From a bacterium (GTDB lineage: Bacteria; Armatimonadota; Zipacnadia; Zipacnadales; Zipacnadaceae), in assembly GCA_030603495.1 (NCBI GenBank), contig JAUVXR010000017.1:1-51634 (forward strand): a DNA stretch of 51,634 bases, written 5' to 3'. The translations under genes and the position numbers were made by a program. Every line of letters begins with the position of its first letter. The stretch's first letter is position 1. Shown here piece after piece: positions 8,890 through 45,929 of this stretch. The notes below the pieces were generated by a model. That model saw only the letters and a list, made by a program, of their open reading frames with translations. It was not told the DNA's origin and searched no databases.

Positions 8890-11800
8890 TTAGATCTCCA
8901 CTGCATCCGCGTAGACTAGGCGCCGGGCGGTCTCCAGCCTCAAGGCCGTGAGGGTCGTGGCAGTGGCGATCTTGTCAGTGTAGTATATCTCGTACTCGCG
9001 GATGACCAAGCGGAAGGGCTGTGAGCCGCGCGGGCCCGGCAGCGTTACACTGCCGGTCCACGCTGATCCGATACGCCTCCGCTGCCGCGTGAGCGCAAAG
9101 GGCTCAGTCGAAGCCGGAACCCAACCCATGACGCCCTCGACATTCCCCTGCCTCTTTTCGACGCTGACCTCGACTTGGCTACCCCGGCTGGCTTCGGAGG
9201 CGGCATAGGTGGGACCGGTCACAGTCACGTTCACTTTGGCCTGGTCAGCCTGATCAAGAACGACGGTAGCCGTACGGTCGGGAGCAAGCTGTGCGAAGTC
9301 TGCCAGCACCACCCGCGAGAGCTTGACGTCTGCCTGTGGTCCCTTGACTGACATCGGTTGATAGCGAGCCAGCGCCAGGCGGACGAACGGGTAGTAAGCC
9401 TGGCCGCAGTCAATCTCAATGTCGCAGTACCACAGCTGGCGCTCTTCATCGTAGCCGACCTCGTGCCCGGCGACCTGAACCTTCGCTCCGGGCACCTCCT
9501 CCAGGGTCAGGCCAGACTCGGTGGCCTGCGCCGCCGTGAAGGCCTGCAGCGGGGGTGCCGAAGTCGTAACCGCCGCCGACTGCCACAAGGGGTCCTGCCC
9601 CCAGTGGCTTACGTAGTCTTTCAGGCGGGCTGTGCCTCCCACTAGCGCCCGCATGGTCAGCATCATCCGCTGCGGCTGCGCCAAGACTACACCCAGCAAC
9701 TCCCCGTCGCCCGAAGAGTACCAGGGGCGCTCCAGGTACACACGTAGGCCTTGGCCCGAGCGTGTGCTGGTAACACCCGTGGCGGTCTTTTGTTTTGTCC
9801 AGCCGAAGGTAGGTATCACGTAGAGCACATCAGGAGGCGCGGGCCGCGCCGAACTGAGCACGTCCACCGCCACCTGCTCGGAGGTACGCGTCAGATCCAG
9901 TGCCCCAGACTTGACATCATCGGGGTCGAAGTACTCCCGGAAGCGACTGCTGGCAAGCGCCTGGTACGTCACTCGCCGGTACTTGGTATCGCCGAACTCG
10001 TGGCGTTGGCGGAGATACAACATAGTCTGTTGCGGTTGGAGGGCGGTTTCACCCACGTCCGCCTTGCCCAAGAGTCGGCGCGGACCCGGCTCCGCCAGGA
10101 TGTCTACTGGCTCTTCCCACTGCGCCTGAATGTCTAGCTTCGCTGTGCTCTTGCCGCTAATAGGCACCTGATCGAGCAGCGTCGCGTACGTCTCACCGAT
10201 GCCTTTGTTAGCTCTGGGCTGTTGCCACTGGGGGATAATCAGCGGCTGCTGCACGGCGTGGACCACGACCAGGCGGCGGTGGGGCGTGAGCATCCAGTGC
10301 TCTCCCTTCTCCGCCTCTTGCTTGAGCTGTACCACCTTTTGCACCTGAGTCGGGCTCAGCTTGACCCGACCCATCCAGCCGGGCATTTGCCGCACCTCGT
10401 GCAGTTGCCTGAATACCTGTCGGCTCTCTGCCTGGGGGAGATTGGCCGCCTTGAGCGCTGGCGCGGCGATGCCCTCAACAACCCACCGCCACATCGCCAT
10501 GCGGGGCAGTTCTGTCGGCGGCGCGTAGGTGCTGATGATGATTTCGGCCATTTCGGCCTTCGGTAGCGGCACCCGCAGGGCCCGTCTGTCAGTGTCAAAG
10601 GCGACCTCAGCCTGGCTATCGGGGTCCTCGTACAACACCATGCGGAAAGGCTCGAGGTCCGGCCAGGCGCCCTCGAAGGGGATGCGCAGCACCTGCTCCT
10701 GGGCATCCCTTCCCCCGAACAGCGGCTTGAAGCGAATCAGCGCACCAGCCGCCAGCGGGTCCGGCAGGTACGGCAGCTGCAGTTGGGCTACGTCGTAGCT
10801 CTCGGCCAGGGACTGGTCTCGGCTCACGATCAGATTGTAGGTCGCCGCATCCCCTCTCATCCCATCGGCGGGATTGTCGAACATACCGTGGGTCTCCGCC
10901 AACAGCTCAGAGGTCTTCGGCGGCGCCTCGTGACGCTCGGAGACTTCCTCGGAGCGAACCCGGTCCTTGGCCGGCTCATCATTAAAGCTGCGGATTACCG
11001 CGTGCTCCAGGGACTCTCCCGGGGATCCTGACAGGCTGGTGCGGGGAACGGTGACCGGCGCCGCCACGGGCTCATGGCGGAAGTAGGTGATCGGCTCGGT
11101 GGCATGGGAGTCATCCGCCTCCTCCAGCGAGAGGCCGCTACCAGCTAGGTCCACGGCCCGCGCCCGCAAGCGGTATTCAGTGCCGAAGCGCAGCCGCGGC
11201 AAGGAGCTCGAAGACGGCACGAAACTTGCCTCCAGACCGAAGGCGGGTTGGGAGAGCGTCTCTGCACCCTCTTCCTCGACAGCCTTTCCTGGCCGCGGTG
11301 CGCACAGGCTCCAGCCCTCCCAGCGCAATAGCACCTCATGCACGCGCAGTTCCTCGGACGATCCGTCAGAGGATTCGGTTGCCGCCGTGGATACCCAGCC
11401 ATCGTCTTCCAGCGTCAGCTCCCGCCCTGACTTGGTGAAGGCGTAGGTCCCCACACGCCCGCACAGCGAGTGCCACTGCTCGCTGGCACTGTCCCAGACA
11501 TCTAGGCGATGGCCGCGCGTGAGATCTTCCGCGTAGAACGATACTTCCTCATCGGGCTGGGGGCTGGCCAGCATAAGTTGATTAAGACTCGTCGCCCGCT
11601 TCAGAATGTTCGCTAACATTACCGCCCGATCCACGCGGGCCACCCAGAGTCCCGCAGAGCGCAAGGTGGGCAGGGCGGCTTCCTCCTGCTCGGGCTCGGG
11701 CTCCGGCTGCGTCTGGGCTGCGGGGATCGCCTCGACCGTGCCCGGGCGCATCAGGCGTGGTGTTACTGTGAGGGCCCGCGGCGCCAGTGCCAGGGCAGGC

Positions 11801-12906
11801 TTAAGCGTCACCTTCCGGGCCAGTTCCATGGTCTTTATGGCAGCGCCATCCACGTCGAACTGACCTACTTCGAAGCGCTCATCGTCATCCAGCCGCAGCA
11901 TACCGTCGCCCAGGTCGGAGTCAGTCGAGCGCGTTCTCGCCCGAAAAGCCTGATTGGTGAGAACGCAGTGGGTCCGGGGCATTCGGTTGACGGTAGCCGT
12001 GGCCAGTTCCGGGCTCCACTGTGGCACCACGCGAACGGTGGTGGCTCCCACCAGGTCTGCCGTGAAAGGCACTTCCAGGTCAATGACCAGCCCGAGGCGC
12101 CGCAGCAACCCCGGATACTGGCCCAGCGACGACAGAATACGGTGGAAGTCAATGGATTCCACCAGCGCCTGCGCCGTGAGCCGCGCTACGGGCCGGGTGA
12201 CTGGTGGTTTGTGAAAAGCCTGGAGCTGATGAAATTCGACGGCTGCCGGAGCGACACCGGCAACCAGAGACTGGGGCTGCGCCACGCGGGCCTTGCCCAG
12301 GACTACACGCTGGGAACTAGCGGCCTCATAGGCGGGATTCTGTACTACCTTCAGTCCGCCAAGGCGCATGCGGCTGGCGAGTTGTTGGGAGATCTGCGTA
12401 CTGCGCTGGGGGGTCAACGAAATATCCTGGAATAGCCTGCGCACCCCCTGGAGGCTCTGGTTCTCCGGTGTCAACCGGGGGATCTCTACCGGCGATTCGA
12501 TACCGACCGCTTGATATGTTTCCTTCAGGCGAGACACGACGTTTCGCACCGGGAAGGAGAGTATCGGGCGCGCGGACATGTCGGGGAATTCGTACGGCTC
12601 GACATAGACATTGGCATCGAACAGGCTTGCCCATAGCTCCGCCGCCGGCGGTTCACCGGGTGGAGCGATGCGCTCCGCCATGATGGCTGGTCCCGCGCCG
12701 AATTGCACGGAGAATTGCATTTCAGCTACCCGCTCCGGCCAGTTCAGGAAGTCGGGGAACTGGGACAGCGTCGGCCGAGCGCCGCCTTCGTTGGTCTCCA
12801 GCCGGGGCGAGACAAATACCGAGAGCCGCACACGCGCATCACCGGCGCCTGGTGTGCCGCTCACCCCATTGGGCAGTGCTGTCCACATTACCGTCTGTCG
12901 TTTCAT
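8890..12906 (-). CDS. Giant conserved protein of unknown function (partner of the Tat protein)
   Basis: A 1338-residue protein that I cannot assign to a characterised family. The start has MWTALPNG, RLSVFVSPRLET and FPDFLNWPERV, which read as conserved motifs. The middle has an FnIII-like strand RLRARAVDLAGSG, and the last third has HEFGDTKYRRVTY followed by SSRFREYF. An acidic Pro/Glu linker (PEPEPEQEEA) separates the N-terminal third. No signal peptide or membrane segment is evident. I choose the ATG at 12906 (AAAGGGTG upstream); the TTG at 12927 would overlap the upstream gene. It follows the 1562-residue gene after only 13 bases, so the two are surely co-transcribed. Its beta-rich composition suggests a structural or binding role in a complex with its partner. 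Confidence 0.8.
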   Translation of the reverse strand: MKRQTVMWTALPNGVSGTPGAGDARVRLSVFVSPRLETNEGGARPTLSQFPDFLNWPERVAEMQFSVQFGAGPAIMAERIAPPGEPPAAELWASLFDANVYVEPYEFPDMSARPILSFPVRNVVSRLKETYQAVGIESPVEIPRLTPENQSLQGVRRLFQDISLTPQRSTQISQQLASRMRLGGLKVVQNPAYEAASSQRVVLGKARVAQPQSLVAGVAPAAVEFHQLQAFHKPPVTRPVARLTAQALVESIDFHRILSSLGQYPGLLRRLGLVIDLEVPFTADLVGATTVRVVPQWSPELATATVNRMPRTHCVLTNQAFRARTRSTDSDLGDGMLRLDDDERFEVGQFDVDGAAIKTMELARKVTLKPALALAPRALTVTPRLMRPGTVEAIPAAQTQPEPEPEQEEAALPTLRSAGLWVARVDRAVMLANILKRATSLNQLMLASPQPDEEVSFYAEDLTRGHRLDVWDSASEQWHSLCGRVGTYAFTKSGRELTLEDDGWVSTAATESSDGSSEELRVHEVLLRWEGWSLCAPRPGKAVEEEGAETLSQPAFGLEASFVPSSSSLPRLRFGTEYRLRARAVDLAGSGLSLEEADDSHATEPITYFRHEPVAAPVTVPRTSLSGSPGESLEHAVIRSFNDEPAKDRVRSEEVSERHEAPPKTSELLAETHGMFDNPADGMRGDAATYNLIVSRDQSLAESYDVAQLQLPYLPDPLAAGALIRFKPLFGGRDAQEQVLRIPFEGAWPDLEPFRMVLYEDPDSQAEVAFDTDRRALRVPLPKAEMAEIIISTYAPPTELPRMAMWRWVVEGIAAPALKAANLPQAESRQVFRQLHEVRQMPGWMGRVKLSPTQVQKVVQLKQEAEKGEHWMLTPHRRLVVVHAVQQPLIIPQWQQPRANKGIGETYATLLDQVPISGKSTAKLDIQAQWEEPVDILAEPGPRRLLGKADVGETALQPQQTMLYLRQRHEFGDTKYRRVTYQALASSRFREYFDPDDVKSGALDLTRTSEQVAVDVLSSARPAPPDVLYVIPTFGWTKQKTATGVTSTRSGQGLRVYLERPWYSSGDGELLGVVLAQPQRMMLTMRALVGGTARLKDYVSHWGQDPLWQSAAVTTSAPPLQAFTAAQATESGLTLEEVPGAKVQVAGHEVGYDEERQLWYCDIEIDCGQAYYPFVRLALARYQPMSVKGPQADVKLSRVVLADFAQLAPDRTATVVLDQADQAKVNVTVTGPTYAASEASRGSQVEVSVEKRQGNVEGVMGWVPASTEPFALTRQRRRIGSAWTGSVTLPGPRGSQPFRLVIREYEIYYTDKIATATTLTALRLETARRLVYADAVEI

Positions 12907-12919
12907 ATTCAGCACCCTT

Positions 12920-15900
12920 TCAAGCAAACGCCTCGCAGTAGGCGATCCAGTCAGCTTCGGCCATCAAGTCCTCAAAGCTCGGCGGGCTGGTTGCCGGAAC
13001 GAGCCCGCCCGCCGCACCACCGAGTTGAGCGAGCCGGAGGCCATCGAGCCGGGCGTGTCCCTCGGACGAGCCCGCAAATTGCCGCTTCACTCTCAAGGTC
13101 ACGCTGATGCTGAAGAACAGTATCTCGATGGAGACCTTCAGACTGGCCTCGCCCCAGACGCGATTGCCCGCCGACTCGTAAGTCAAGCCCAGGTAGAACT
13201 CCAGGGAGATAGTGATAATCCCCAGGATCGATAGTGAACCGCCCATTCTCAGGTACCCGGTGAGAACGGCTTCCCCATCTTCCCACTTGTAGTAGACGCC
13301 GCCCATGGCGTAGATGCCACCGCTGGCCACGCCAATATCGAGCGACAGGCTCCCACCGAATTCGAACGAGGCCTCCAGTAGCGACAGCCCCTGTGGGGTC
13401 AGCTCGATGGCGAAGAAGCCGCCCCCGCCAAACATTGATACCGTCAGCAGGAAGGGATTATGTCGCTCGCAGAAGCCGAAGCGCAAGCGCAAGGGGTTAC
13501 TGGTGAAGGGCAACTCGAAGCCAGCGATGAGGCTGATGTTCTGCAAGCTGAAAACGCCCACAGCGACCGAAGGGATGGGCAGGGTGTAGCCCAGCTTGAT
13601 ACCGGTTGGGGAGATATCCAGGTTAGGCGGGTCACTGAAGCCGTCCATGGGAATGAACTTGCTCAACGTGTTGACAAACTTCAGCGGCCCCCCGAATTCG
13701 ATCTCGCCGATCTCCGCGCTTACATCCAGCTTCTGCCCAGTCTTAGAAAGAAACGAGATCTCGTCGAAGGCAATACGTATGAAGTAGTCAATACTGCCGA
13801 AGGGGATCAGATGCAGCGCAAATCGGGTAAGCTTGCCCTCAACCTGGGCAGTCGCGTCCTGGCCAGATAGGTCAGAGCGCAGCGTCGCGCTAATTGACAG
13901 AGAGGTGCCATTGTCCGCAGCGAAGATGGGCTTGCCAAACGAGGGAAAGGACTGAACGTCGGGAGCCCATTCGAGCTTGGCCACGACCGCCTCGGGCGCT
14001 CCGTTGTCGTCGCGCTCGACGTGGCTGGTCAGCTTGGGAATCTGATCGTCCCCGAATACGGCCTTGATGATGTCGCGCAGCAGAATCGACCCCAGGATCT
14101 TGGCGGTATCACTGAAGAACTCGGTGGGGTCGAAAGTACCACCGGCGAGATCCTCGAGCACTCCGCCTACTGGGCCAAACTTGCGCGACAGGCCCTGGAT
14201 ATTGAGGTCGGGCGTGGCTAGGCCGCCGGACTGGTCTGCGCCGAACTGCAGCGGCAGCGAGTCAAGCAAACCGATGAAAACTTCACCCTTGTTCCGGGCC
14301 GAGTGCCAGGCATCATTGATGTACGTGGGATGTATCTGGATAGCGGTGCTCGCAGCACTGCCGGTCACCTGAGCAACCGCGGGCATCCGGACCTCCGCCC
14401 GCGCCAGCGTTGGATAGCAGCGCGGCTGGTTATTCTCCTCCAGCGTCTTGGCAGATACGGCATTGTCCGGAGCTGTCATCTCCGCCCCGAAGATCACCGT
14501 CTGTGTCTCCAGGGAGGTATCTCCCGGCTTCTGGGCGCTGCTGTCGGCGAAGGCTACCTTCTGGCCGAACATACCCGACTGCCGCCGACTTTCCTCGGCC
14601 TGCTCGTTGTAGTATGTTACTACGTGCCCCATAGTGTCTTCGTCGAAGGCGAAGCCGAATTTCTTGCCAGGAGCATTCTCCACGCCGATGAAGATGAGCG
14701 GGACTGAGAAATCACTGCGCTGACCGTCCCAGTCTTCAGCGACGATCTGGAAGGGGAAATCCTCGCTGCCCACGCGGGGCCAGAAGGCGGCCTGGGCCGA
14801 GGCGCCGGTGCCGGGCACTGCACTGGACTCCGGTGGGTTCAGATTGGGCGTCACCAGCGAAGTAATCCGTACCCGTCGGAAGGGTATCGCCCGGCCGTCA
14901 TTGGCCTGACCGAAAGCGGGATATGTCTTCTCGGGCTCTCGTACGACGATGAACATCCTCTGGCGCAGGTAGGCGATGGTGCCGGTCCGGCCGGTGTGGA
15001 ACTTGCGCTCCGTGACCTTGATCAGCGAAGCCCGGTGACCAAAGGGGAACAGGTAGCCCTTGTAGACCACCTTGACATACTGATCCCGGCCCATTGTCGC
15101 CTGGTGCCGCCATGCTTCAACTGACAGACCGTGCCCCAGCGGTACTTCCGCGGCATACTTGCTGTCTATCCAGACACCCAGTGGGCTCAACATCAGCCGG
15201 TCAGCGTGCACGACCCGCGACTGGGCTTCCGCTATGCTGAAGTCGGAGGTCAGCCAGACTAGCTCGCAGCGGTCGCGCCTATCCAGCGACATGCGAAAGG
15301 GGGTATTCACGTGTGTAGGAATAGACTTGGAGTAGTCCGGCGACCAGACGGCCCGCAGCGAGCGGAAGTAGGCCAGCTGGTCGCCTCCGGAAGTGCGCAG
15401 GACCCGGAAGGTACCGTCTTTCCAGCCGTACTCGTACTGCCGGTCAACGACTCGCTCCTCGCCTGAGCTGACGCCCAGGCGCGTGTGCCACAGCTCGACG
15501 CGGCCGTTATGCTCTACCAGCTTATCAGTGTGCGCCCAACCAGCCATCGAACTCGGCGAGAGCATCAGCCGGTAGGGCGCTTCGATGGCGGTCTCCGTGG
15601 CGGTCGGCTCGCGGATAATGCGGACGACTCGCGCCAGGGCGGCTGCTGAGAACGTTGTGCTCGGCACGAGCAACTCGAGCTGTGCCGGTAGGCGAGGCTG
15701 GCTGCCCTCGGTCGTTAGCCGTTGCCCGGGCTTGGACACCTTGAACCGCAGACCCCCGGGCGTCTGAAGCGGGCGGAGCTGGACTGGTGTGGGCGGCGGT
15801 AGCGCCGTTGGGGCGACTGAGAGCTTGTATTTCGTCCAGTCCAGGAGCGCACTGAGGCTGTAGTCAATGGAGTTTACGCCTTCGGGCAGTTCGAAAACCA

Positions 15901-17608
15901 GGCGGCTCGGCCCCGACAGCCGCGCCCGCACCGGCGGTGGCGGTAGCGGCTCACTCCCGCTCGCACTCGCGTCCGCATCTGGCTCGACCCCAGCTGGGCG
16001 GTAGGCATTTCCCACCGGCAGGTTGTTGTCTACCTCAAAGAAAGCCTGCTCGGCAATGTGCTGGGGTGGAAAATGCACGATTATGTACGCGGGCTCCTGG
16101 CTCTGGACGCGGACAAGCTGGGGGGCCTCGCCATTGCCAGTCTCAAGCGACAGGTTGCGGAACTCAAAACTCAGGGCGAGCAGGTCTTCGGGCCGGACCA
16201 CGTTGACGGTAAGACCCAGCAGACGGATTCCCGGCAACTGTAGACCGGGAACAGGCCTGACCTCGCCTGCGGGTGGGACTTGGACGGCGGGAGGACGCTC
16301 GATTCTCCCGGCGGGGGGCTGGCGCCGCTGGATCTGCGCCACTTGCGTGTCGCTGCTGACGAAGTGTACCTGGGCACCCTCCGGCGCCGCACTTAGCTCG
16401 ACCATCGCTCCTGCCAGCGGCGCAAACACTGCTAACAGAGCCGGCTCGCAGCGGGCCTCTCGAATCTGCCCGCCCTCGCTGACGACCTCAAAGGGCCGGC
16501 AGTCGGGCACATCGCCTAACTGCACGCTGCACCCCTCGCCGTGCAGCCACACGGGAGTGTCGCTGAAATTGGCTACCAACGCCGTCTCGTTACCCCCAGG
16601 GCTCCAGGCGACCGCGTAGCGCGGCTCGCGCAGCGGCAGCGCGAAGGCCTGGCCATCGCCGCGGGGGCACTGCTCCGAGGGCAGATAACTAAGCCGGGCT
16701 GCTTGGCCGTCACCCTCCGCCAGCAGCGTTCGCTGAGCTCTCCCCCGCTCGTCCTCGCCTGCCTCAATCTGGATCGTATCGAAGGGGCAACCTTCCGCCG
16801 TGAACTTGCCCTCCCCGGGTGCGGAGAGACTCTCGACAAGTGCCCACTCGTGCTCCTCACGCTCGAGGACCACTAGGCTCCGCCTTGCGGGAGGCTCTTC
16901 GATAATGCTGGGGGCGTCGGGCTGAAGCAGTGCGACGGTGATAGTGTCGGAAACCACAGCCTTACCCAGGCCGGTAAGCGAGGCAATCTCGCAGCCGCAC
17001 AGCTTCAGTCGCCAATCTGGCGAGAACTCCGCTTCGCCGGCCCCGCTCAACGTCAACCCGGCCCCGTCAGCCAGCGGGCAGGCCAGGCGGGACAGTCTCA
17101 CGCGCCCTCGTATCGGTTCGGCTCCGGCCAGCCAGCTTGCCAGCGGCACCTCGCCCCTCAGACCACCCAGCTTGAGCTGCAGTCTCATCCGCCAACCAGC
17201 TAGCCCCCGCCTCAGTTGACATACAAAGTCCGCGGGCAATTGCGTTCCCGGATAACGCGCCCCAGTCAGGGTAACCCGGATGAAATCGTTGTTCTCCTCT
17301 ACTTCGAGGCGGGCCTCTCCGGCAAGCCGCTGCCGGTCAATCACCCAGCGTTCGCGCCCCCCCAGCTTGAAGGCTACTCGGCCGGGCTGCCTGGCCAGCT
17401 CAAAGCGCCCCAGCAGCGCCGGACCTACTTCCTTGACCATAGGAGGCACGCTTACGGCAGCAACTCCGGCTAGGCCTAGCAGTTCCCGGCGGGAAAGACT
17501 AACGGCGCTGGGGGTGGACAGCACTTCCGACAGAGTTGGCTTAGCGTCCGTGGACCGCAACCGGGGCGTGCCGCGCAGGGCGGCGAGGTTCAGTCGGGTA
17601 CGCTTCAT
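12920..17608 (-). CDS. Giant Tat-exported beta-rich protein of unknown function
   Basis: A 1562-residue protein with a twin-arginine signal: SRRELLGLAGVAAVSV with R40-R41 after a long 40-residue n-region and then a hydrophobic core. Residues 60 to about 1200 are mixed beta-rich sequence with no recognised enzyme motif. About 1240-1510 is striking: alternating short hydrophobic strands rich in Gly and Phe (LTVSMFGGGGFFAIEL, GGSLSLDIGVASGG, RMGGSLSILGIITISLEFYL) ending in an acidic tail. In style this resembles DUF6603-like beta-repeat domains, but I cannot confirm membership. GGAGGCTCCAGG precedes the ATG. tatA lies about 230 bases upstream on the same strand, suggesting dedicated Tat export. 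It may be a large cell-surface or periplasmic assembly. Confidence 0.85.
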   Translation of the reverse strand: MKRTRLNLAALRGTPRLRSTDAKPTLSEVLSTPSAVSLSRRELLGLAGVAAVSVPPMVKEVGPALLGRFELARQPGRVAFKLGGRERWVIDRQRLAGEARLEVEENNDFIRVTLTGARYPGTQLPADFVCQLRRGLAGWRMRLQLKLGGLRGEVPLASWLAGAEPIRGRVRLSRLACPLADGAGLTLSGAGEAEFSPDWRLKLCGCEIASLTGLGKAVVSDTITVALLQPDAPSIIEEPPARRSLVVLEREEHEWALVESLSAPGEGKFTAEGCPFDTIQIEAGEDERGRAQRTLLAEGDGQAARLSYLPSEQCPRGDGQAFALPLREPRYAVAWSPGGNETALVANFSDTPVWLHGEGCSVQLGDVPDCRPFEVVSEGGQIREARCEPALLAVFAPLAGAMVELSAAPEGAQVHFVSSDTQVAQIQRRQPPAGRIERPPAVQVPPAGEVRPVPGLQLPGIRLLGLTVNVVRPEDLLALSFEFRNLSLETGNGEAPQLVRVQSQEPAYIIVHFPPQHIAEQAFFEVDNNLPVGNAYRPAGVEPDADASASGSEPLPPPPVRARLSGPSRLVFELPEGVNSIDYSLSALLDWTKYKLSVAPTALPPPTPVQLRPLQTPGGLRFKVSKPGQRLTTEGSQPRLPAQLELLVPSTTFSAAALARVVRIIREPTATETAIEAPYRLMLSPSSMAGWAHTDKLVEHNGRVELWHTRLGVSSGEERVVDRQYEYGWKDGTFRVLRTSGGDQLAYFRSLRAVWSPDYSKSIPTHVNTPFRMSLDRRDRCELVWLTSDFSIAEAQSRVVHADRLMLSPLGVWIDSKYAAEVPLGHGLSVEAWRHQATMGRDQYVKVVYKGYLFPFGHRASLIKVTERKFHTGRTGTIAYLRQRMFIVVREPEKTYPAFGQANDGRAIPFRRVRITSLVTPNLNPPESSAVPGTGASAQAAFWPRVGSEDFPFQIVAEDWDGQRSDFSVPLIFIGVENAPGKKFGFAFDEDTMGHVVTYYNEQAEESRRQSGMFGQKVAFADSSAQKPGDTSLETQTVIFGAEMTAPDNAVSAKTLEENNQPRCYPTLARAEVRMPAVAQVTGSAASTAIQIHPTYINDAWHSARNKGEVFIGLLDSLPLQFGADQSGGLATPDLNIQGLSRKFGPVGGVLEDLAGGTFDPTEFFSDTAKILGSILLRDIIKAVFGDDQIPKLTSHVERDDNGAPEAVVAKLEWAPDVQSFPSFGKPIFAADNGTSLSISATLRSDLSGQDATAQVEGKLTRFALHLIPFGSIDYFIRIAFDEISFLSKTGQKLDVSAEIGEIEFGGPLKFVNTLSKFIPMDGFSDPPNLDISPTGIKLGYTLPIPSVAVGVFSLQNISLIAGFELPFTSNPLRLRFGFCERHNPFLLTVSMFGGGGFFAIELTPQGLSLLEASFEFGGSLSLDIGVASGGIYAMGGVYYKWEDGEAVLTGYLRMGGSLSILGIITISLEFYLGLTYESAGNRVWGEASLKVSIEILFFSISVTLRVKRQFAGSSEGHARLDGLRLAQLGGAAGGLVPATSPPSFEDLMAEADWIAYCEAFA

Positions 17609-37734: not shown

Positions 37735-37809
37735 GGGCCTGTAGCTCAGCGGCAGAGCAGTCGGCTCATAACCGATCGGTCGGTGGTTCGAATCCGCCCA
37801 GGCCCACCA
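37735..37809 (+). tRNA. tRNA with CAT anticodon (elongator Met, or Ile2), CCA encoded
   Basis: Complete cloverleaf: acceptor GGGCCTG pairs with CAGGCCC, D-arm GCTC-AGCGGCA-GAGC, anticodon loop CTCATAA with CAT, T-arm with GGTTCGAATCC, discriminator A and encoded CCA (37807-37809). The G1:C72 pair rules out a bacterial initiator tRNA, which has an unpaired first position. Met elongator and lysidine-modified Ile2 tRNAs cannot be told apart with certainty by eye. Confidence 0.95.
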
Positions 37810-37877: not shown

Positions 37878-37925
37878 GGTATTGCTGAGGCTTAACCGGT
37901 AACCATCAGGCCTCAGGTGACTATA

Positions 37926-40900
37926 ATGCTCAGAATCATCGCCGATCACATTATGTCGGGGCGTCACCGGCTCGGCCGGCACGTGCTCTTCATCGGCAGC
38001 GCGGTGCGCATACCCCCCAGGGATCTGCCCGTCTACCGGATCCTGGAAGCCCTCGTGCGCGAGCAGGTCGCCGACTCTTTCCAGCATCTGCCCGTCGAGC
38101 GTCGGGAGGCCGCCGCCCTGGCACAGTTTGCCTCCCAAGTGCCCGGCCATGACCATCGCTGTCAACTGCTGCGCACAAAGCTCGCCGATAGCCGGCCCGC
38201 CCAAGGACACATACAACTGGCTCATCTCGTTCAGGAGGGCTACTTCTCTACTATCTTCACACTCGAGCCCGACAATCTGCTGGAACAGGCCCTCAGCGCC
38301 CAACACTTAGAACCGGAAACTGACTACCACCTGCTGGTGGCCGGCGTTGATGAGCCCGATGTCATGTCGGTGGCTCTGGAGGACTCTTCACGTGTCGTGG
38401 TGATCAAGTGCGGGGGAGACCTGGACAGCAAGTATCTACCCCTTACCTCCGACGAAATCCGTGATGGACTGGAGCCGATCCGCGCCATCCTCGACCACGC
38501 CTTCCGGGTCCTGTCCATCTTCACTGCCTACAGCGACCGCGACGAACCGTTCCTGGACTTCATGCCCGCCGAAGGCAGCAAGGTCTTCTGGGTAAACACC
38601 CAGGTCCCCACTGCTGACGAAGAGATGTACAAGCAGTTCAAGCTGGAAAGCCCCGGCAGCGTGGAATACCACAATCTTCAGCCCAAGGTGGTGGAGTGGC
38701 TAGACAAGCGCCAGTCGCAACGACACCTGCTTGTACGAGAGGCGGGCTCATTCGACGACTTCTTCGGGCGGCTTCGGGACCGCTTCCAATACCGGCAGCA
38801 CAACAGCCGCCGGCAGCGCAACAGCCGCCGGCAGCGCAAGGATCTCAGCATTTTGCGCGGGGGGCCATACCGCTTCCTGGACTACTTCGATACCGAGGAC
38901 GCTGAACTGTTCTTCGGCCGCGAGCAAGCAATACAGGACATGTGTAGCCTGATCGCCGACCAACCCCTAACCGTGCTGTTCGGCCGCTCCGGTATCGGCA
39001 AGACCTCCCTGATCAAAGCTGGGGTCATCAGCCGGCTCGAGGGCCACGAGGAGCAGCACCTCGAGGAGGCCGATATCTGGCTGCCGATCTATGCCCGTTG
39101 CGAGGACGATCCCGTCGCCAGCATTCGTCAGGCCGCCCTCCTCAGAGCGGAAGAAGATGGCTATGACCCGGAGGAGTCTAGCCAGCAGGCCAGGCTCGGC
39201 GACCTGCTGATACATATCGCCACGGCCACCGGAAAGCACGTGGTTGTTTTCCTGGACCAGGCGGAGGAGCTGTTTGTCAAGCTCGGTCGCCAGGTTCGAG
39301 ACGCTTTCGTTCAGCAGGTCAGGGAGTGCCTGGAACTAGCCCGCGACGACCTGCACCTGGTGCTCAGCATCCGCGAGGACTACATCGGCGAACTGTACGA
39401 GCTACGCGCCGACCTGCCCGACATACTGCAGAACATCTACCGGCTGCGTCGGCTCGACCGCGCCCAGGCCGAAAGGGCGATCGTCCAGCCCGCGGTGAAT
39501 TTCGGCCTGCAAGTTGAACGGAAGCTGGTAGACCAACTACTCGAGGACCTGGCCCGCGAAGGGATCGAGCCGGCCCAGCTTCAGATAGTCTGCCACCGGC
39601 TCTACGAGGAGATTCCGCCGGGTTCGGAGGTCATCACCCTCCGCAACTACCAGAAGCTGGGCGGTGCGGTGCGGATATTGCGCGAGTACCTGGACTACGC
39701 GCTGCGCCAGTTGCCCATGCTCGAGCGGGGTATCGCCCGGGCTATTCTCAAGCAGATGGCCGTTTCCTCCGAATTGAAGGCCACACGCTCGCTGGCGCGC
39801 ATCGCCCAGGAAGTCGGCCAGCAACAGCGTACCGTCGAGCGCGTCTTGGCGAAGCTGGTGGATTACCGGCTGCTGCGCGGCTTGGGCAAGGACCGGCAGC
39901 GCAACTATGAATTGGTCCACGAGCAACTAGCCGAGCAGGTGGACGAGTGGGCTTCCGAAGAAGAACTGAGACTACGCGATGTCCAGGACCTGCTCACCCG
40001 CGAATTGAACAACTTCGAGAAGTTCGGCTTGCTGATGGGCAGCGAAGAACTGCATATCATTGACGACCACCGCGAAGACCTCAGTATATCCCCGGAAGAG
40101 CTGGAATTGATCATGCGCAGTGCTGCTACTCACGATATCGAGGCGGAATACTGGTTCTTGCGGGCCGACGAACTGGACACAGGTAAGCACTCGGTTTTGA
40201 GTTCCCTGCTGCGCGATGAAGCCCCCGAGGTTCGGCGGGTGGCGCACCGGTACTTGAAAGACAATTTGCACGAAGATCTTATTCCTGTCCTGGTGGCTGG
40301 CCTGGACGACGACCAGCCTGACCTGCGCCGCCAGGCCGCCGAGCATCTCCAGTCCCTGAAACGTGAGTTAACTGCTTGGCTGCGAAATGGTGATGCGCGC
40401 CAGCAGGTGGCCGCGGCCCGGGCCTTGGGAGGAATAGCCGCCGGTGACCAACGTTCGAGCATAGCTCTGATCGAAGCTCTCAGTGATGATAACGCCGAGC
40501 TTGCTGAGCACATTGCCCGCGACCTAAAGAAGTCTGACAACCCCCGGAATCTACCGGCGCTGATGCATCGGCTCACCTCCGAATCCGAGCCGCCGTGGGC
40601 CGTCGCATACGTCCTGGGGCAGCTTTGTGCCGCAGACACCCAGTTCAGCCAGTTGCAGGGGAGCCTGCGTAGTCACCCGAGGCTGGCGCAGTTGCGCTAT
40701 GCCGTTGCAGTTGCCCAGGGGCTGCGCCGTGAATCGCAGCAGGCGCACGCCAGCCTGGATCGTGCGCGCGCCCTCAGCTCTGGTCAGATCGCTCAAAGCC
40801 GGATTGAGGAGGCCGAGCAGGCCATTGCGGCCGCTCAGCAGGAAGTCGCAGCCGGCGTAGACCAGTGGCCTATGTTCGGGGGCGGGCCGGCCCACGGGGC

Positions 40901-41888
40901 CTTCACCCCAGAAGCCCTCCGTCCGCCGCTGCAGGAGCTGTGGTCAGTGCGCACCGGTGCCCCCGTGGTGGCCTCACCGGTGGTCGCTGATCATGTGGTC
41001 TATGTCGGCTCACGTGACGGCGTCTTCTACGCGCTGGACAGCCGGGAAGGAGATACGCGCTGGCGCTACGAAGTAGGCGAGCATGTTGAAGCTGCTGCGG
41101 TTGTGGCTGGCGACCTGGTCGTCTTTGGCGCTGCCGACGGTCAACTCCGGGCCCTGCATCGCACTACTGGCCGCCTCCAGTGGCAGCAGGCCGTGGCCGG
41201 CCCGATTAGGTCAGCATGCACTGTGCAGGACAACCAGCTCTTTGTCGGTGACGAGGCGGGCGGCCTCTGGGCGATTGATTGGCTTTCGGGCGAGGTCAAC
41301 TGGCAGATGCAGACCAAGCAGGAGATAGTGGGCGCTCCGGCCGCCGGCGGCGACGTGGTGGTGGTGGGCTCGTGGGACAACGGGCTTTACGCTGCTGGCA
41401 CGGCTGACGGCACGCTGCGTTGGCAACTCGACACGGACGGCCCGATCTCGTCTTCGCCGGCCCTAGTTGGGCCGACGGTCTTCTGCGGGTCGGATGACTC
41501 GTGCCTCTATGCTGTGGAGCTAGCTTCGGGTGAGCTCCAGTGGCAGGCTAAGCTAGGCGGCATGATTAGGTCCACACCGGCAGTAGCCGGCGAGCGACTA
41601 GTAGTTGGCTGTGCCGACGCCAAGGTCTACTGCCTCGATGTCACCTCTGGAGCGCCAATCTGGCAGTATGAAACCGGCGAGGAGGTCCTGGCCTCAGCGG
41701 TCATTACCGGAGATTTCGTCTACATCGGATCCAAGGACGGCGTACTGTACGCTCTAAACTTGGTCGATGGTCAAGTAGAATGGGAACACCACACCGTCTA
41801 CGGCATCTACTCGACGCCGGCTGTAGCCGAAGCTACTCTGTACATCGGCATTGCCTACTATCATGTATCGGCCTTCAGGTCACAGTAA
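37926..41888 (+). CDS. Degenerate-SIR2 / nSTAND1 NTPase / helical repeat / PQQ-type propeller protein
   Basis: A 1320-residue multidomain protein. Residues about 15-265 follow a SIR2-like layout, but the NAD loop is only IGSAVRIPP, the TxNxD site reads TLEPD, and the usual KLHGD is KCGGD (161-165), so the catalytic His is lost. GPYRFLDYFDTEDAELFFGR (313-332) is the nSTAND1 entry motif, then Walker A GRSGIGKTS (353-361) and Walker B VVVFLDQAEE with D444. After the NTPase come helical HEAT-like repeats (about 740-990), then eight propeller blades of the PQQ/BamB type (SPVVADHVVYVGS...YALDSREGDTRW and so on). No signal peptide or membrane helix. Fold classes are those of STAND sensors, including SIR2-STAND antiphage proteins; function is inference. 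The start at 37926 is preceded by AGGTG. Confidence 0.85.
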   Translation: MLRIIADHIMSGRHRLGRHVLFIGSAVRIPPRDLPVYRILEALVREQVADSFQHLPVERREAAALAQFASQVPGHDHRCQLLRTKLADSRPAQGHIQLAHLVQEGYFSTIFTLEPDNLLEQALSAQHLEPETDYHLLVAGVDEPDVMSVALEDSSRVVVIKCGGDLDSKYLPLTSDEIRDGLEPIRAILDHAFRVLSIFTAYSDRDEPFLDFMPAEGSKVFWVNTQVPTADEEMYKQFKLESPGSVEYHNLQPKVVEWLDKRQSQRHLLVREAGSFDDFFGRLRDRFQYRQHNSRRQRNSRRQRKDLSILRGGPYRFLDYFDTEDAELFFGREQAIQDMCSLIADQPLTVLFGRSGIGKTSLIKAGVISRLEGHEEQHLEEADIWLPIYARCEDDPVASIRQAALLRAEEDGYDPEESSQQARLGDLLIHIATATGKHVVVFLDQAEELFVKLGRQVRDAFVQQVRECLELARDDLHLVLSIREDYIGELYELRADLPDILQNIYRLRRLDRAQAERAIVQPAVNFGLQVERKLVDQLLEDLAREGIEPAQLQIVCHRLYEEIPPGSEVITLRNYQKLGGAVRILREYLDYALRQLPMLERGIARAILKQMAVSSELKATRSLARIAQEVGQQQRTVERVLAKLVDYRLLRGLGKDRQRNYELVHEQLAEQVDEWASEEELRLRDVQDLLTRELNNFEKFGLLMGSEELHIIDDHREDLSISPEELELIMRSAATHDIEAEYWFLRADELDTGKHSVLSSLLRDEAPEVRRVAHRYLKDNLHEDLIPVLVAGLDDDQPDLRRQAAEHLQSLKRELTAWLRNGDARQQVAAARALGGIAAGDQRSSIALIEALSDDNAELAEHIARDLKKSDNPRNLPALMHRLTSESEPPWAVAYVLGQLCAADTQFSQLQGSLRSHPRLAQLRYAVAVAQGLRRESQQAHASLDRARALSSGQIAQSRIEEAEQAIAAAQQEVAAGVDQWPMFGGGPAHGAFTPEALRPPLQELWSVRTGAPVVASPVVADHVVYVGSRDGVFYALDSREGDTRWRYEVGEHVEAAAVVAGDLVVFGAADGQLRALHRTTGRLQWQQAVAGPIRSACTVQDNQLFVGDEAGGLWAIDWLSGEVNWQMQTKQEIVGAPAAGGDVVVVGSWDNGLYAAGTADGTLRWQLDTDGPISSSPALVGPTVFCGSDDSCLYAVELASGELQWQAKLGGMIRSTPAVAGERLVVGCADAKVYCLDVTSGAPIWQYETGEEVLASAVITGDFVYIGSKDGVLYALNLVDGQVEWEHHTVYGIYSTPAVAEATLYIGIAYYHVSAFRSQ
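38802..38837 (+). repeat. Perfect 18-bp tandem duplication inside the STAND gene
   Basis: AACAGCCGCCGGCAGCGC occurs twice head to tail (38802-38819 and 38820-38837), encoding two copies of an N-S-R-R-Q-R unit in the basic linker between the SIR2-like and nSTAND1 domains. It is in frame, so it can expand or contract by slippage without breaking the gene. Confidence 0.9.
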
Positions 41889-42825
41889 CCGGTCGCCGTA
41901 TCATCATTCGCCCAGGCAGCGCAGTCGGCAGGCGCTAAAGCTGGTCATCGTGCCCGCCGCCGTGCTTGCCGCCGTGCTTGCCGGCTGCCAGCCACTTGAG
42001 CAGGCCGACCAGATGCGTACCGATTTCATCGCGCTGCGATATACCAAGAGTGCCATGCAAGCCCTTGCTGAGCCGGTGGATGCGGGCCAAGCTAGCCGTT
42101 ACGCAACTCGGGCCCTCGAGCTGGCTCCCCATAATGAAATAGTGCTCGACCGAGTTGGCAAGGCATACCTGCACGTCGGGGCCTATGAACAGGCCCTCAC
42201 GGTAGTGCAAGAAGCGCAGCTGATGACTGGTCGCGACTACTACTACGAGTTAGGCACCTGCTACCTGCACACTGGCCAACAGGAGCTGGGCGCAGAGTAT
42301 CTGGCCAAACATCTCCAATGGGTAAGGTTTGGGTTCGCTGCGGAAGCAGTCGGTGAAGCAGTCTACGCTGTTGAACTCAATAACGTGGGCTATACCTACG
42401 CCGAGGCAGACTTCAACCTGTCCGAGGCTCTGAAGCTGACCAAGCAGGCAGTCCGGTACGCGCCGTTGAACCCCGCATTCACTGACAGCCTGGGGTGGGT
42501 CTGCTACAAGCTGGGCGATTTCAGCAACGCCGCTTTTTATCTGGAGCGGGCGGTTCGCCAGTCCCGTCAGCAGCCTAACGCCGAACTGCACTACCATCTG
42601 GGCGTCGTCTACGCGCGCTCGGGTCAGCGGGAAGCAGCCGTGCGCGAACTGCGAGAAGCTCTGGATATCCGGCCTAAGTATTCTCAGGCAATGCGCGAAC
42701 TACGCAAACTCAACTGGGAACTCGCTCCGCCCTGGCATGCTATGGCCACGGATCTGACATTAGTCGTAAACAGCATCCCGACATCAAGGGGGTATCCCTG
42801 TGAAAATTTCCCGACGAGCAGCTAA
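41863..42825 (+). CDS. TPR-repeat lipoprotein
   Basis: A 320-residue protein overlapping the end of the STAND gene by 26 bases and the next gene by 26, a compact operon-like layout. After a long basic N-terminal stretch comes a hydrophobic segment and a good lipobox LAGC (C42). The rest is TPR-like helical pairs (YATRALELAPHNEIVLDRVG, YYELGTCYLHTGQQELGAEY, LHYHLGVVYARSGQREAAV). The 40-residue n-region is unusually long for a lipoprotein signal, so a downstream start is possible but none is obvious. It should face the periplasm or cell surface; no function can be assigned. Confidence 0.75.
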   Translation: MYRPSGHSNRSPYHHSPRQRSRQALKLVIVPAAVLAAVLAGCQPLEQADQMRTDFIALRYTKSAMQALAEPVDAGQASRYATRALELAPHNEIVLDRVGKAYLHVGAYEQALTVVQEAQLMTGRDYYYELGTCYLHTGQQELGAEYLAKHLQWVRFGFAAEAVGEAVYAVELNNVGYTYAEADFNLSEALKLTKQAVRYAPLNPAFTDSLGWVCYKLGDFSNAAFYLERAVRQSRQQPNAELHYHLGVVYARSGQREAAVRELREALDIRPKYSQAMRELRKLNWELAPPWHAMATDLTLVVNSIPTSRGYPCENFPTSS

Positions 42826-43987
42826 CATCCAGCCCTCGGCGACCCTCTCCATGGCCGCCCGAGCCAAGCAGATGGCTCGTGAAGGACTAGACGTGATAGC
42901 CTTCGGAGTTGGCGAGCCCGACTTTCCCACCCCCGAGCATATCTGCGAGGCCGCCCGGGAGGCCATCGAGGCCGGCCATACCAAGTACACGCCCGCAAGC
43001 GGTATCCCTGAGCTGAAAGAGGCCATCGTCGGCCGCTTGCAGGCCGAGTTCGGTCTGACTTATGCCCCCGACCAGGTCTGCATCAGCAACGGCGGCAAAC
43101 ATGCACTTATGAACATTTGGGAGACACTGTTGGACCCGGATGATGAGGTCATCATCTTCGCGCCGTATTGGGTCACCTATCCGGTCCAGATTGAACTGTG
43201 CGGCGGCCGACCGGTCGTTATCATGACCGATGCCAGTCGCAACTTCCAGCCCGACCTGGACCAGCTCCGCGCGGCCGTAACCCCGCGTACTGTGGCCATC
43301 CTCGTTAACAGTCCCAGTAACCCCAGCGGGGGTATCTTCGAGCCGGAAATGCTCGAAGGAATCGCGGCTATCGCTGCGGAGCACGACCTGACTATCATTT
43401 CCGACGAAATATACAAGCATCTTGTCTTTGACGATCGCCAGCACCTGAGCATCGCCATGCTGGATGACGAGACCCAGGCGCGTACGATCCTGGCCGACGG
43501 CGTGGCTAAGAGCTATGCAATGACCGGCTGGCGGATCGGGTGGCTGGTCGGGCCGAAGGAGTTCGCCGTGAAGGCCGGGAGCATCCAGAGCCAGGAGACG
43601 TCGAATCCCTGCTCTATCGCCCAATATGCCGCCGTGGCTGCTCTAACCGGCCCGCAGGATTGCGTGGCCGAGATGCGCGACCAGTTCGAGCAGCGTCGGG
43701 ACTTCTTCGTCGAGGGGCTGTGCGAAATCGAGGGCATCCAGTGCAATATCCCGGCCGGCGCCTTCTACCTTTTTCCAGATATCTCAGCACACCTGGGCCG
43801 CGAGCTGGGCGGCCAGCAGATAACGACCTCGCTCGAGTTGGCTGAGTACATCCTGGAAGAGACCCTCACCGCCACCGTTCCGGGCTCGGCCTTTGGCGCA
43901 GAGGGGTTCCTGCGCCTGAGCTTTGCCTGCTCAGTGGAAGATATTCGGCGAGGAGTGGAGCGCCTACGTTCGGTGCTGACTGGATAG
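42800..43987 (+). CDS. Class I PLP aminotransferase (aspartate aminotransferase type)
   Basis: A 395-residue fold-type I aminotransferase of the Ib (thermophile/AspC-like) group. VIAFGVGEPDFPTP opens the family, SNGGKHALMN and NSPSNPSGGI bind cofactor and substrate, and K237 in GVAKSYAMTGWRIGW is the Schiff-base lysine; the late Arg in FLRLSFACS binds the carboxylate. It probably makes aspartate from oxaloacetate and glutamate; members may also use prephenate. A GTG start at 42800 follows AAGGGGG. It overlaps the preceding gene by 26 bases. Confidence 0.92.
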   Translation: MKISRRAANIQPSATLSMAARAKQMAREGLDVIAFGVGEPDFPTPEHICEAAREAIEAGHTKYTPASGIPELKEAIVGRLQAEFGLTYAPDQVCISNGGKHALMNIWETLLDPDDEVIIFAPYWVTYPVQIELCGGRPVVIMTDASRNFQPDLDQLRAAVTPRTVAILVNSPSNPSGGIFEPEMLEGIAAIAAEHDLTIISDEIYKHLVFDDRQHLSIAMLDDETQARTILADGVAKSYAMTGWRIGWLVGPKEFAVKAGSIQSQETSNPCSIAQYAAVAALTGPQDCVAEMRDQFEQRRDFFVEGLCEIEGIQCNIPAGAFYLFPDISAHLGRELGGQQITTSLELAEYILEETLTATVPGSAFGAEGFLRLSFACSVEDIRRGVERLRSVLTG

Positions 43988-44715: not shown

Positions 44716-44840
44716 AGGTGCACGAGCCGTCTGCAGTCAATTCCCTTCCCTTCGGAACACGTTCGGAACATAAACTCAACCACAAGCTACTACTTCTGCG
44801 CCAATTTGTCAAGATTGACGTTGCCAAGGAGAGAAGATCT

Positions 44841-45929
44841 ATGTATACCATAACGCTGATTCCGGGTGATGGTACCGGGCCAGAAGTCACCGAAGCCATG
44901 CGTAGATGCGTCGAAGCCACCGGTGTACCCATCCAGTGGGATGTCCAGTACGCCGGCTGCGAGGTTATGGAACAGTACCAAACGCCACTGCCCGAGGGAG
45001 TGCTCGACTCAATCAGGCAGAACAAGGTCGCCATCAAGGGGCCGATAACCACACCGGTGGGCACCGGCTTCCGCAGCGTCAATGTGGCGCTACGCAAGCA
45101 ACTCGATCTCTACGCCTGCCTGCGCCCCTGCAAGTACTATGAGGGGGTCAAATCCCGGTATCCCCAGGCCGACTTGGTTATCGTCCGGGAGAATACCGAA
45201 GACCTCTATGCGGGCATCGAGTTCCCTCGCGACTCCGAGCAGTGTGCCGAGATGATCGAGCAGATTCACCGGCTTAGCGGCGTACGTATCCGGGAGGACT
45301 CAGCTATCAGCATCAAGCCGATCTCCCAGTTCGGCTCCGCCCGCATCGTGCGCTTCGCTTTTGAATACGCCCGGGCTAACGGCCGCCGGAAGATTACCGC
45401 CGTTCACAAGGCCAACATTATGAAGTATTCCGATGGGCTGTTTCTCGATACAGCCCGCCAGGTCGCCGAGGAATACGCCGACAGCGGCATCGAGTTCGAA
45501 GACCGCATAGTTGACAACATGGCGATGCAGCTCGTCCAGAAGCCCGAACTGTACGACGTGCTGGTCCTGCCCAACCTCTATGGCGATATCATCAGCGACT
45601 TGGCCTGCGGGCTGGTGGGCGGTCTGGGCGTAGCGCCCGGCGCCAATATCGGCGAGAACATCGCTGTCTTCGAACCTACTCACGGCAGCGCCCCCAAGTA
45701 CAAGGGCCAAAACAAGGTCAATCCCGCCGCGACAATACTGTCGGCGGTGATGATGCTGCGCTATCTCGACGAAGAAGCAGCCGCCGACCGACTCGAACAG
45801 GCGGTAGCCACGGTCATCCGCAGGGGTGAGCAAGTCACCTACGATCTGAAGCCCAGGCGCGACGACCCGACTGCCGTAGGCACCAGCGAAATGGCCGACG
45901 CCATTATCGCCGAACTCCAACACAGCTAA
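44841..45929 (+). CDS. NAD-type isocitrate dehydrogenase (isocitrate/isopropylmalate dehydrogenase family)
   Basis: A 362-residue beta-decarboxylating dehydrogenase. It opens [13 protein letters not shown], has [16 protein letters not shown] (with the substrate-contacting Ser/Asn region before it), [25 protein letters not shown], the metal Asp block DNMAMQLVQ and [14 protein letters not shown], and the coenzyme loop [16 protein letters not shown]. The pattern fits the NAD-dependent isocitrate dehydrogenase (IDH3-like) group rather than LeuB. It would oxidise isocitrate to 2-oxoglutarate in the citric acid cycle. AAGGAG lies 10 bases before the ATG at 44841; an upstream open frame is non-conserved. 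It is a stand-alone gene. Confidence 0.9.

Follow-up and report, generated by a model that had tools for sequence, protein, structure and literature searches.

The window analysed here (51,634 nucleotides) carries a gene for a protein in which a SIR2-like domain is followed by an nSTAND1 NTPase and a PQQ-type propeller. In bacteria, STAND proteins with NADase effectors are mainly known as patchy defence genes, and an earlier note on this DNA had placed the protein in an antiphage frame while reading its SIR2 part as catalytically dead. The locus hence raises the question of what a STAND protein with a degenerate effector domain does for its host, and whether this role lies in defence at all.

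Gene model and domain architecture

The window spans an entire contig from a genome of 2.67 Mb (93.5% complete), and the gene starts at ATG 37926 on the forward strand (Table 1). The open reading frame is not a chance frame, because full-length orthologues occur class-wide and dN/dS values lie at 0.06-0.13. ATG 37926 was favoured as the start over GTG 37917 based on an AGGTGA located 5 bases upstream of it. On the reverse strand, the window additionally holds two neighbouring, overlapping and very long open reading frames (1,345 and 1,562 aa, positions 8890-17608).

Table 1. Features of the STAND gene and its surroundings in the window
Feature	Position	Strand	Remark
tRNA-Met	37735..37809	+	directly 5' of STAND gene
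AGGTGA, ribosome-binding-like site	37915..37920	+	read from sequence
CDS, pseudo-SIR2 / nSTAND1 / HEAT / eight-bladed PQQ-type propeller	37926..41888	+	1,320 aa
SIR2-fold domain	37926..38801	+	residues 1-292, catalytically degenerate
Shortened NAD loop, GSAVRIPP	37995..38018	+	residues 24-31
TLEPD replacing TxNxD	38259..38273	+	residues 112-116; Asn missing in 39/39
KCGGD replacing KxHGD	38406..38420	+	residues 161-165; no His or Asn in 39/39
nSTAND1 NTPase	38865..40010	+	residues 314-695
Walker A, GRSGIGKT	38982..39005	+	residues 353-360
Walker B region, VVVFLDQAEE	39240..39269	+	includes D444
All-helical HEAT region	40011..40850	+	residues 696-975 (about 280 residues)
Eight-bladed PQQ/BamB-type propeller	40929..41885	+	residues 1002-1320
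Ring-closing propeller strand, LQELWSVR	40929..40952	+	residues 1002-1009
TPR protein with lipobox (LAGC)	41863..42825	+	ATG overlaps end of STAND gene
PLP-dependent aminotransferase (aspartate aminotransferase-like)	42800..43987	+	kept neighbour
Isocitrate dehydrogenase-like gene	44838..45929	+	neighbour often kept

Pfam assigned residues 314-695 to nSTAND1, residues ~758-812 to HEAT repeats, and residues ~1004-1317 to a PQQ/BamB-type propeller; the HEAT stretch between NTPase and propeller, supported by both Pfam and the predicted structure, had been absent from the earlier description. Structures were predicted with AlphaFold2 in two overlapping parts that were modelled separately (residues 1-745, mean pLDDT 85; residues 690-1320, mean pLDDT 92.9). 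The NTPase matches nSTAND1 (PF20703) with 197 bits against a Pfam cut-off of 27 (E 8e-58), its modelled residues 313-690 resemble NLRC4, MalT, and Apaf-1, and G353, K359, and T360 of Walker A as well as D444 of Walker B are intact, as had been read from the sequence. In family f9, the NTPase additionally has an altered sensor arginine (RED).

The model of the second part comprises a helical arm (residues 696-975) and eight four-stranded blades, each ending in a tryptophan, with the ring closed by the N-terminal strand, so that the predicted fold bears out the proposed blade count and closure. The best fold match of this half was the designed eight-bladed propeller Cake8 (TM 0.94 on target), closely followed by BamB. 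WD40-type arms are the usual partners of nSTAND1 proteins, and a PQQ-type propeller had been regarded as out of place in such a protein. The propeller itself is present; it is less odd than supposed, since NCBIfam matches include the kinase AfsK (BamB scores below the cut-offs) and many further PQQ-propeller genes exist in genomes of the class. Unlike BamB, which is an outer-membrane lipoprotein, the 1,320-aa protein has no N-terminal signal visible by eye in its sequence, and its propeller is C-terminal.

The SIR2 fold and its lost catalytic site

The assignment of the N-terminal domain to the SIR2 fold is supported by the predicted structure, as residues 1-292 match solved SIR2 folds with Z-scores of 15-20. 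The best match was the SIR2 domain of SPARSA (Z 20.4, rmsd 3.1 over 257 residues), and further matches were ThsA (Z 16.9), DSR2 (about 15), and KomC. Foldseek placed the SIR2-STAND protein EfAvs5 (9jap) at the top for residues 1-745, and SIR2-Ago models of PADLOC matched residues 55-211 (E 1e-13). The Pfam family SIR2_2 matched five of 18 relatives; the window protein itself had no match, and the orthologue in genome G044 scored above the cut-off.

The catalytic Asn and His are missing not only here, as the earlier note had observed, but in all 39 aligned orthologues. The position of the Asn in TxNxD is occupied by E, D, G, S, C, T or A, and that of the His in KxHGD by G, A, C, L or P, i.e., neither by His nor by its known substitute Asn. 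The NAD loop reads GSxVxxPP, compared to the longer GSGVSRSSGIP in an ordinary SIR2 protein of the same phylum. The Asp of TTNxD is retained in 22 of the 39 sequences, and the framework residues G24, K161, and G164 were kept. The loss of the SIR2 catalytic residues is thus old and fixed in every orthologue. The domain is nonetheless in use, because its dN/dS in three close pairs (0.057, 0.084, and 0.113) is about that of nSTAND1.

That the domain remains an NADase through a non-standard route is highly improbable. Single-residue rules are not absolute, given that PaAvs5 is functional with Asn instead of the His of its HG motif (PMC12931631). However, Asn153 can be replaced by neither Ala nor Gln, the exchanges N110A and D112A in TTNxD abolish immunity (PMC12931631), and each of the 39 present orthologues has lost both the catalytic Asn and the His, with a variety of residues in their place. 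The solved folds closest to residues 1-292 belong to proteins that hydrolyse NAD+ (SPARSA and Thoeris ThsA), whereas the residues needed for catalysis are gone here.

The earlier note had alternatively considered the SIR2 part as a scaffold or as an NAD sensor. Binding of NAD+ or ADP-ribose without cleavage, through which the cellular NAD state would set the STAND switch, would fit the retained framework with G24, K161, and G164 and the binding of NAD by ThsA-type relatives. We consider it quite unlikely, as the NAD loop is shortened and the sites of the catalytic Asn, Asp, and His differ from family to family and are of only average conservation, which argues against a retained catalytic or sensing pocket. 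A conserved NAD-sensor pocket was sought and none was found. Of the two proposed roles, the sensor is consequently disfavoured, and a scaffold-like role, which the SIR2 fold would take over as a non-catalytic module, is retained.

Distribution, inheritance and neighbouring genes

Full-length orthologues, for which the earlier note had suggested a profile search, occur throughout the class Zipacnadia (described in PMC10290634). All genomes sampled were MAGs. The N-terminal domain was detected in a single strong copy in 45 of 46 Zipacnadia/WS1 genomes, the gene in the 46th being cut at a contig end, and the other 245 Armatimonadota genomes had no strong match to this domain. A contig scan with a 10-row alignment and two DNA patterns, by which diverged relatives elsewhere would be missed, likewise placed all of its full-length orthologues in MAGs that carry the names Candidatus Zipacnadia, candidate division WS1 or Armatimonadota. 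The gene tree requires 11 changes for 12 groups when compared to the GTDB families, which is the minimum possible, and purifying selection is strong on all domains including the dead SIR2 (dN/dS 0.06-0.13). As controls, ordinary SIR2_2 genes were patchy (17/46 genomes of the class), and MreC was present in 45/46. The distribution of the STAND gene resembles that of MreC, unlike that of a defence gene.

Irregular gene copies were also encountered. The orthologues of genomes G012 and G013 (L044:5100-9077 and L016) are interrupted by one in-frame TAG, which is due to a sequencing error or else to a recent disruption of the gene. An apparent STAND-TPR fusion in G025 (1,599-aa frame, L034:773-5569) was rejected, as an unread contig base shifts the frame, and a different frame encodes the remainder of the propeller and ends in a stop codon of its own.

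The neighbours in the window are housekeeping genes and had zero matches in PADLOC. The separate effector whose search in the neighbourhood had been recommended was found neither in the window nor by PADLOC, and the linked genes are metabolic or envelope-related. In the order and in families f7 and f8, the TPR gene lies directly 3' of the STAND gene wherever the contig is long enough (with a lipobox in many cases), followed by the aminotransferase and then often by the isocitrate dehydrogenase-like gene. Families f9 and f10 branch off first, and in them the STAND gene is followed by one or two MreC genes. In f9 these form a tandem pair directly 3' of the STAND gene (L037:6210-7975, L038:11794-13757), and two MreC genes were also observed in f10 (genome G045); in the other members of the class, MreC occurs once and at a different location.

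These results bear on the reading as an antiphage SIR2-STAND receptor of the Avs5 kind, in which the dead SIR2 would recruit a separate effector encoded elsewhere. This reading draws on the EfAvs5 match, on the naming of nSTAND1 from conflict systems (PMC8195603), and on inactive enzyme domains already described in the effector position of such systems (PMC7159879). Against it stand the single copy class-wide, the vertical descent, and the housekeeping neighbours without any defence gene nearby. The SIR2 plus STAND part was covered by no plasmid or phage record, and a mobile origin was rejected, as the plasmid and phage matches listed reach nSTAND1 only. Moreover, as the other SIR2_2 genes are patchy, this family does not supply an active partner that is constantly present. 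The antiphage framing of the earlier note is therefore not upheld: a defence receptor of this kind is unlikely, and antiphage function is now less likely than the role of a core gene.

Origin and possible role of the STAND gene

The core of nSTAND1, HEAT region, and propeller is shared with Armatimonadota families f24 and f41 (L156, L157, L158, L159, L164), whose proteins are homologous over the entire core (residues 314-1317) at 31-36% identity. Where covered, their N-terminal domain is HD-like instead of SIR2-like (HD-CE, E 4e-9 for f41 and a weaker match for f24). Family f24 retains the H and HD motifs, which f41 (L156) has lost. NfeD and SPFH genes follow the STAND core in f41 and two genomes of f24 (L156, L157, L159); only the f41 NfeD was identified by Pfam, and the remaining NfeD and SPFH genes were named from their sequences. 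The tree places f41 as the sister group of the class and leaves f24 outside if f24 serves as the root, so the direction of the N-terminal exchange depends on this rooting. Most simply, an old core had its N-terminal effector position swapped, and catalysis was lost in two lineages. Other nSTAND1 proteins of the Armatimonadota carry unrelated N-termini (L163:1585-4890, L160:401-3520), of which, judged by eye, one resembles a cyclase and the other contains a TIR-like segment.

Taken together, the protein is probably a cytoplasmic, NLR-like STAND ATPase that was domesticated as a vertically inherited single-copy core gene of Zipacnadia, which suggests an everyday role instead of fighting viruses. 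Certain immune genes can themselves be core genes, which counts against this reading, as does the altered sensor arginine of f9. As a domesticated switch, the protein would bind an internal ligand or partner via its propeller and HEAT arms, the nSTAND1 switch would open in an ATP-dependent manner, as in the STAND family, and thereby assemble the protein, and the SIR2 fold would relay the signal as a non-catalytic interaction or assembly module. Second, and more weakly, the TPR lipoprotein, MreC, and NfeD-SPFH neighbours hint that this signal may concern the cell envelope. We regard this link as possible, if doubtful; it may be chance operon context, since the linked genes vary by lineage. Direct contact with the TPR lipoprotein is unlikely, because the lipoprotein is predicted to be exported and the STAND protein has no visible signal peptide.

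The comparison with known systems delimits what is distinctive here. Avs5 (SIR2-STAND, AVAST type 5) likewise combines a SIR2 fold at the N-terminus with a STAND NTPase behind it that has Walker A and B. The present protein differs from it by the missing TxNxD Asn and HG/NG and by its HEAT and PQQ-type propeller arm; Avs5 is a patchy defence gene, whereas the gene here is a class-wide, vertically inherited core gene without defence neighbours. In conflict systems, nSTAND1 is paired with diverse effectors (PMC8195603), usually active ones, as opposed to the dead SIR2 of a gene fixed in its class. The human sirtuins FAM118A/B likewise represent an antiphage-type SIR2 fold as a resident cellular gene, but keep Asn and His, process NAD, and have no STAND NTPase or propeller (PMC12700824). 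The proteins of f24 and f41 share the core, with the HD-like domain in place of SIR2 and, in three genomes, NfeD-SPFH 3' of the gene. Among the papers searched, none described an inactive SIR2 domain of this type.

A bolder version of the core-gene reading, which we offer tentatively, is that an NLR-like immune receptor has been an essential housekeeping switch since the class ancestor, with the effector position changed from HD to SIR2 and catalysis lost in two lineages, and that this dead-effector STAND protein might run a resident pathway, for instance one that controls the envelope or the cell shape.

A class-wide, vertically inherited member with a fixed dead SIR2, and with sisters carrying another N-terminal domain, provides a case in which the path from an immune-type receptor to a core gene can be traced, and it permits a direct test of the role that such a STAND switch has after loss of the toxic step. 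The case is also a warning for annotation, as a SIR2-STAND architecture is by itself insufficient for calling an antiphage NADase.
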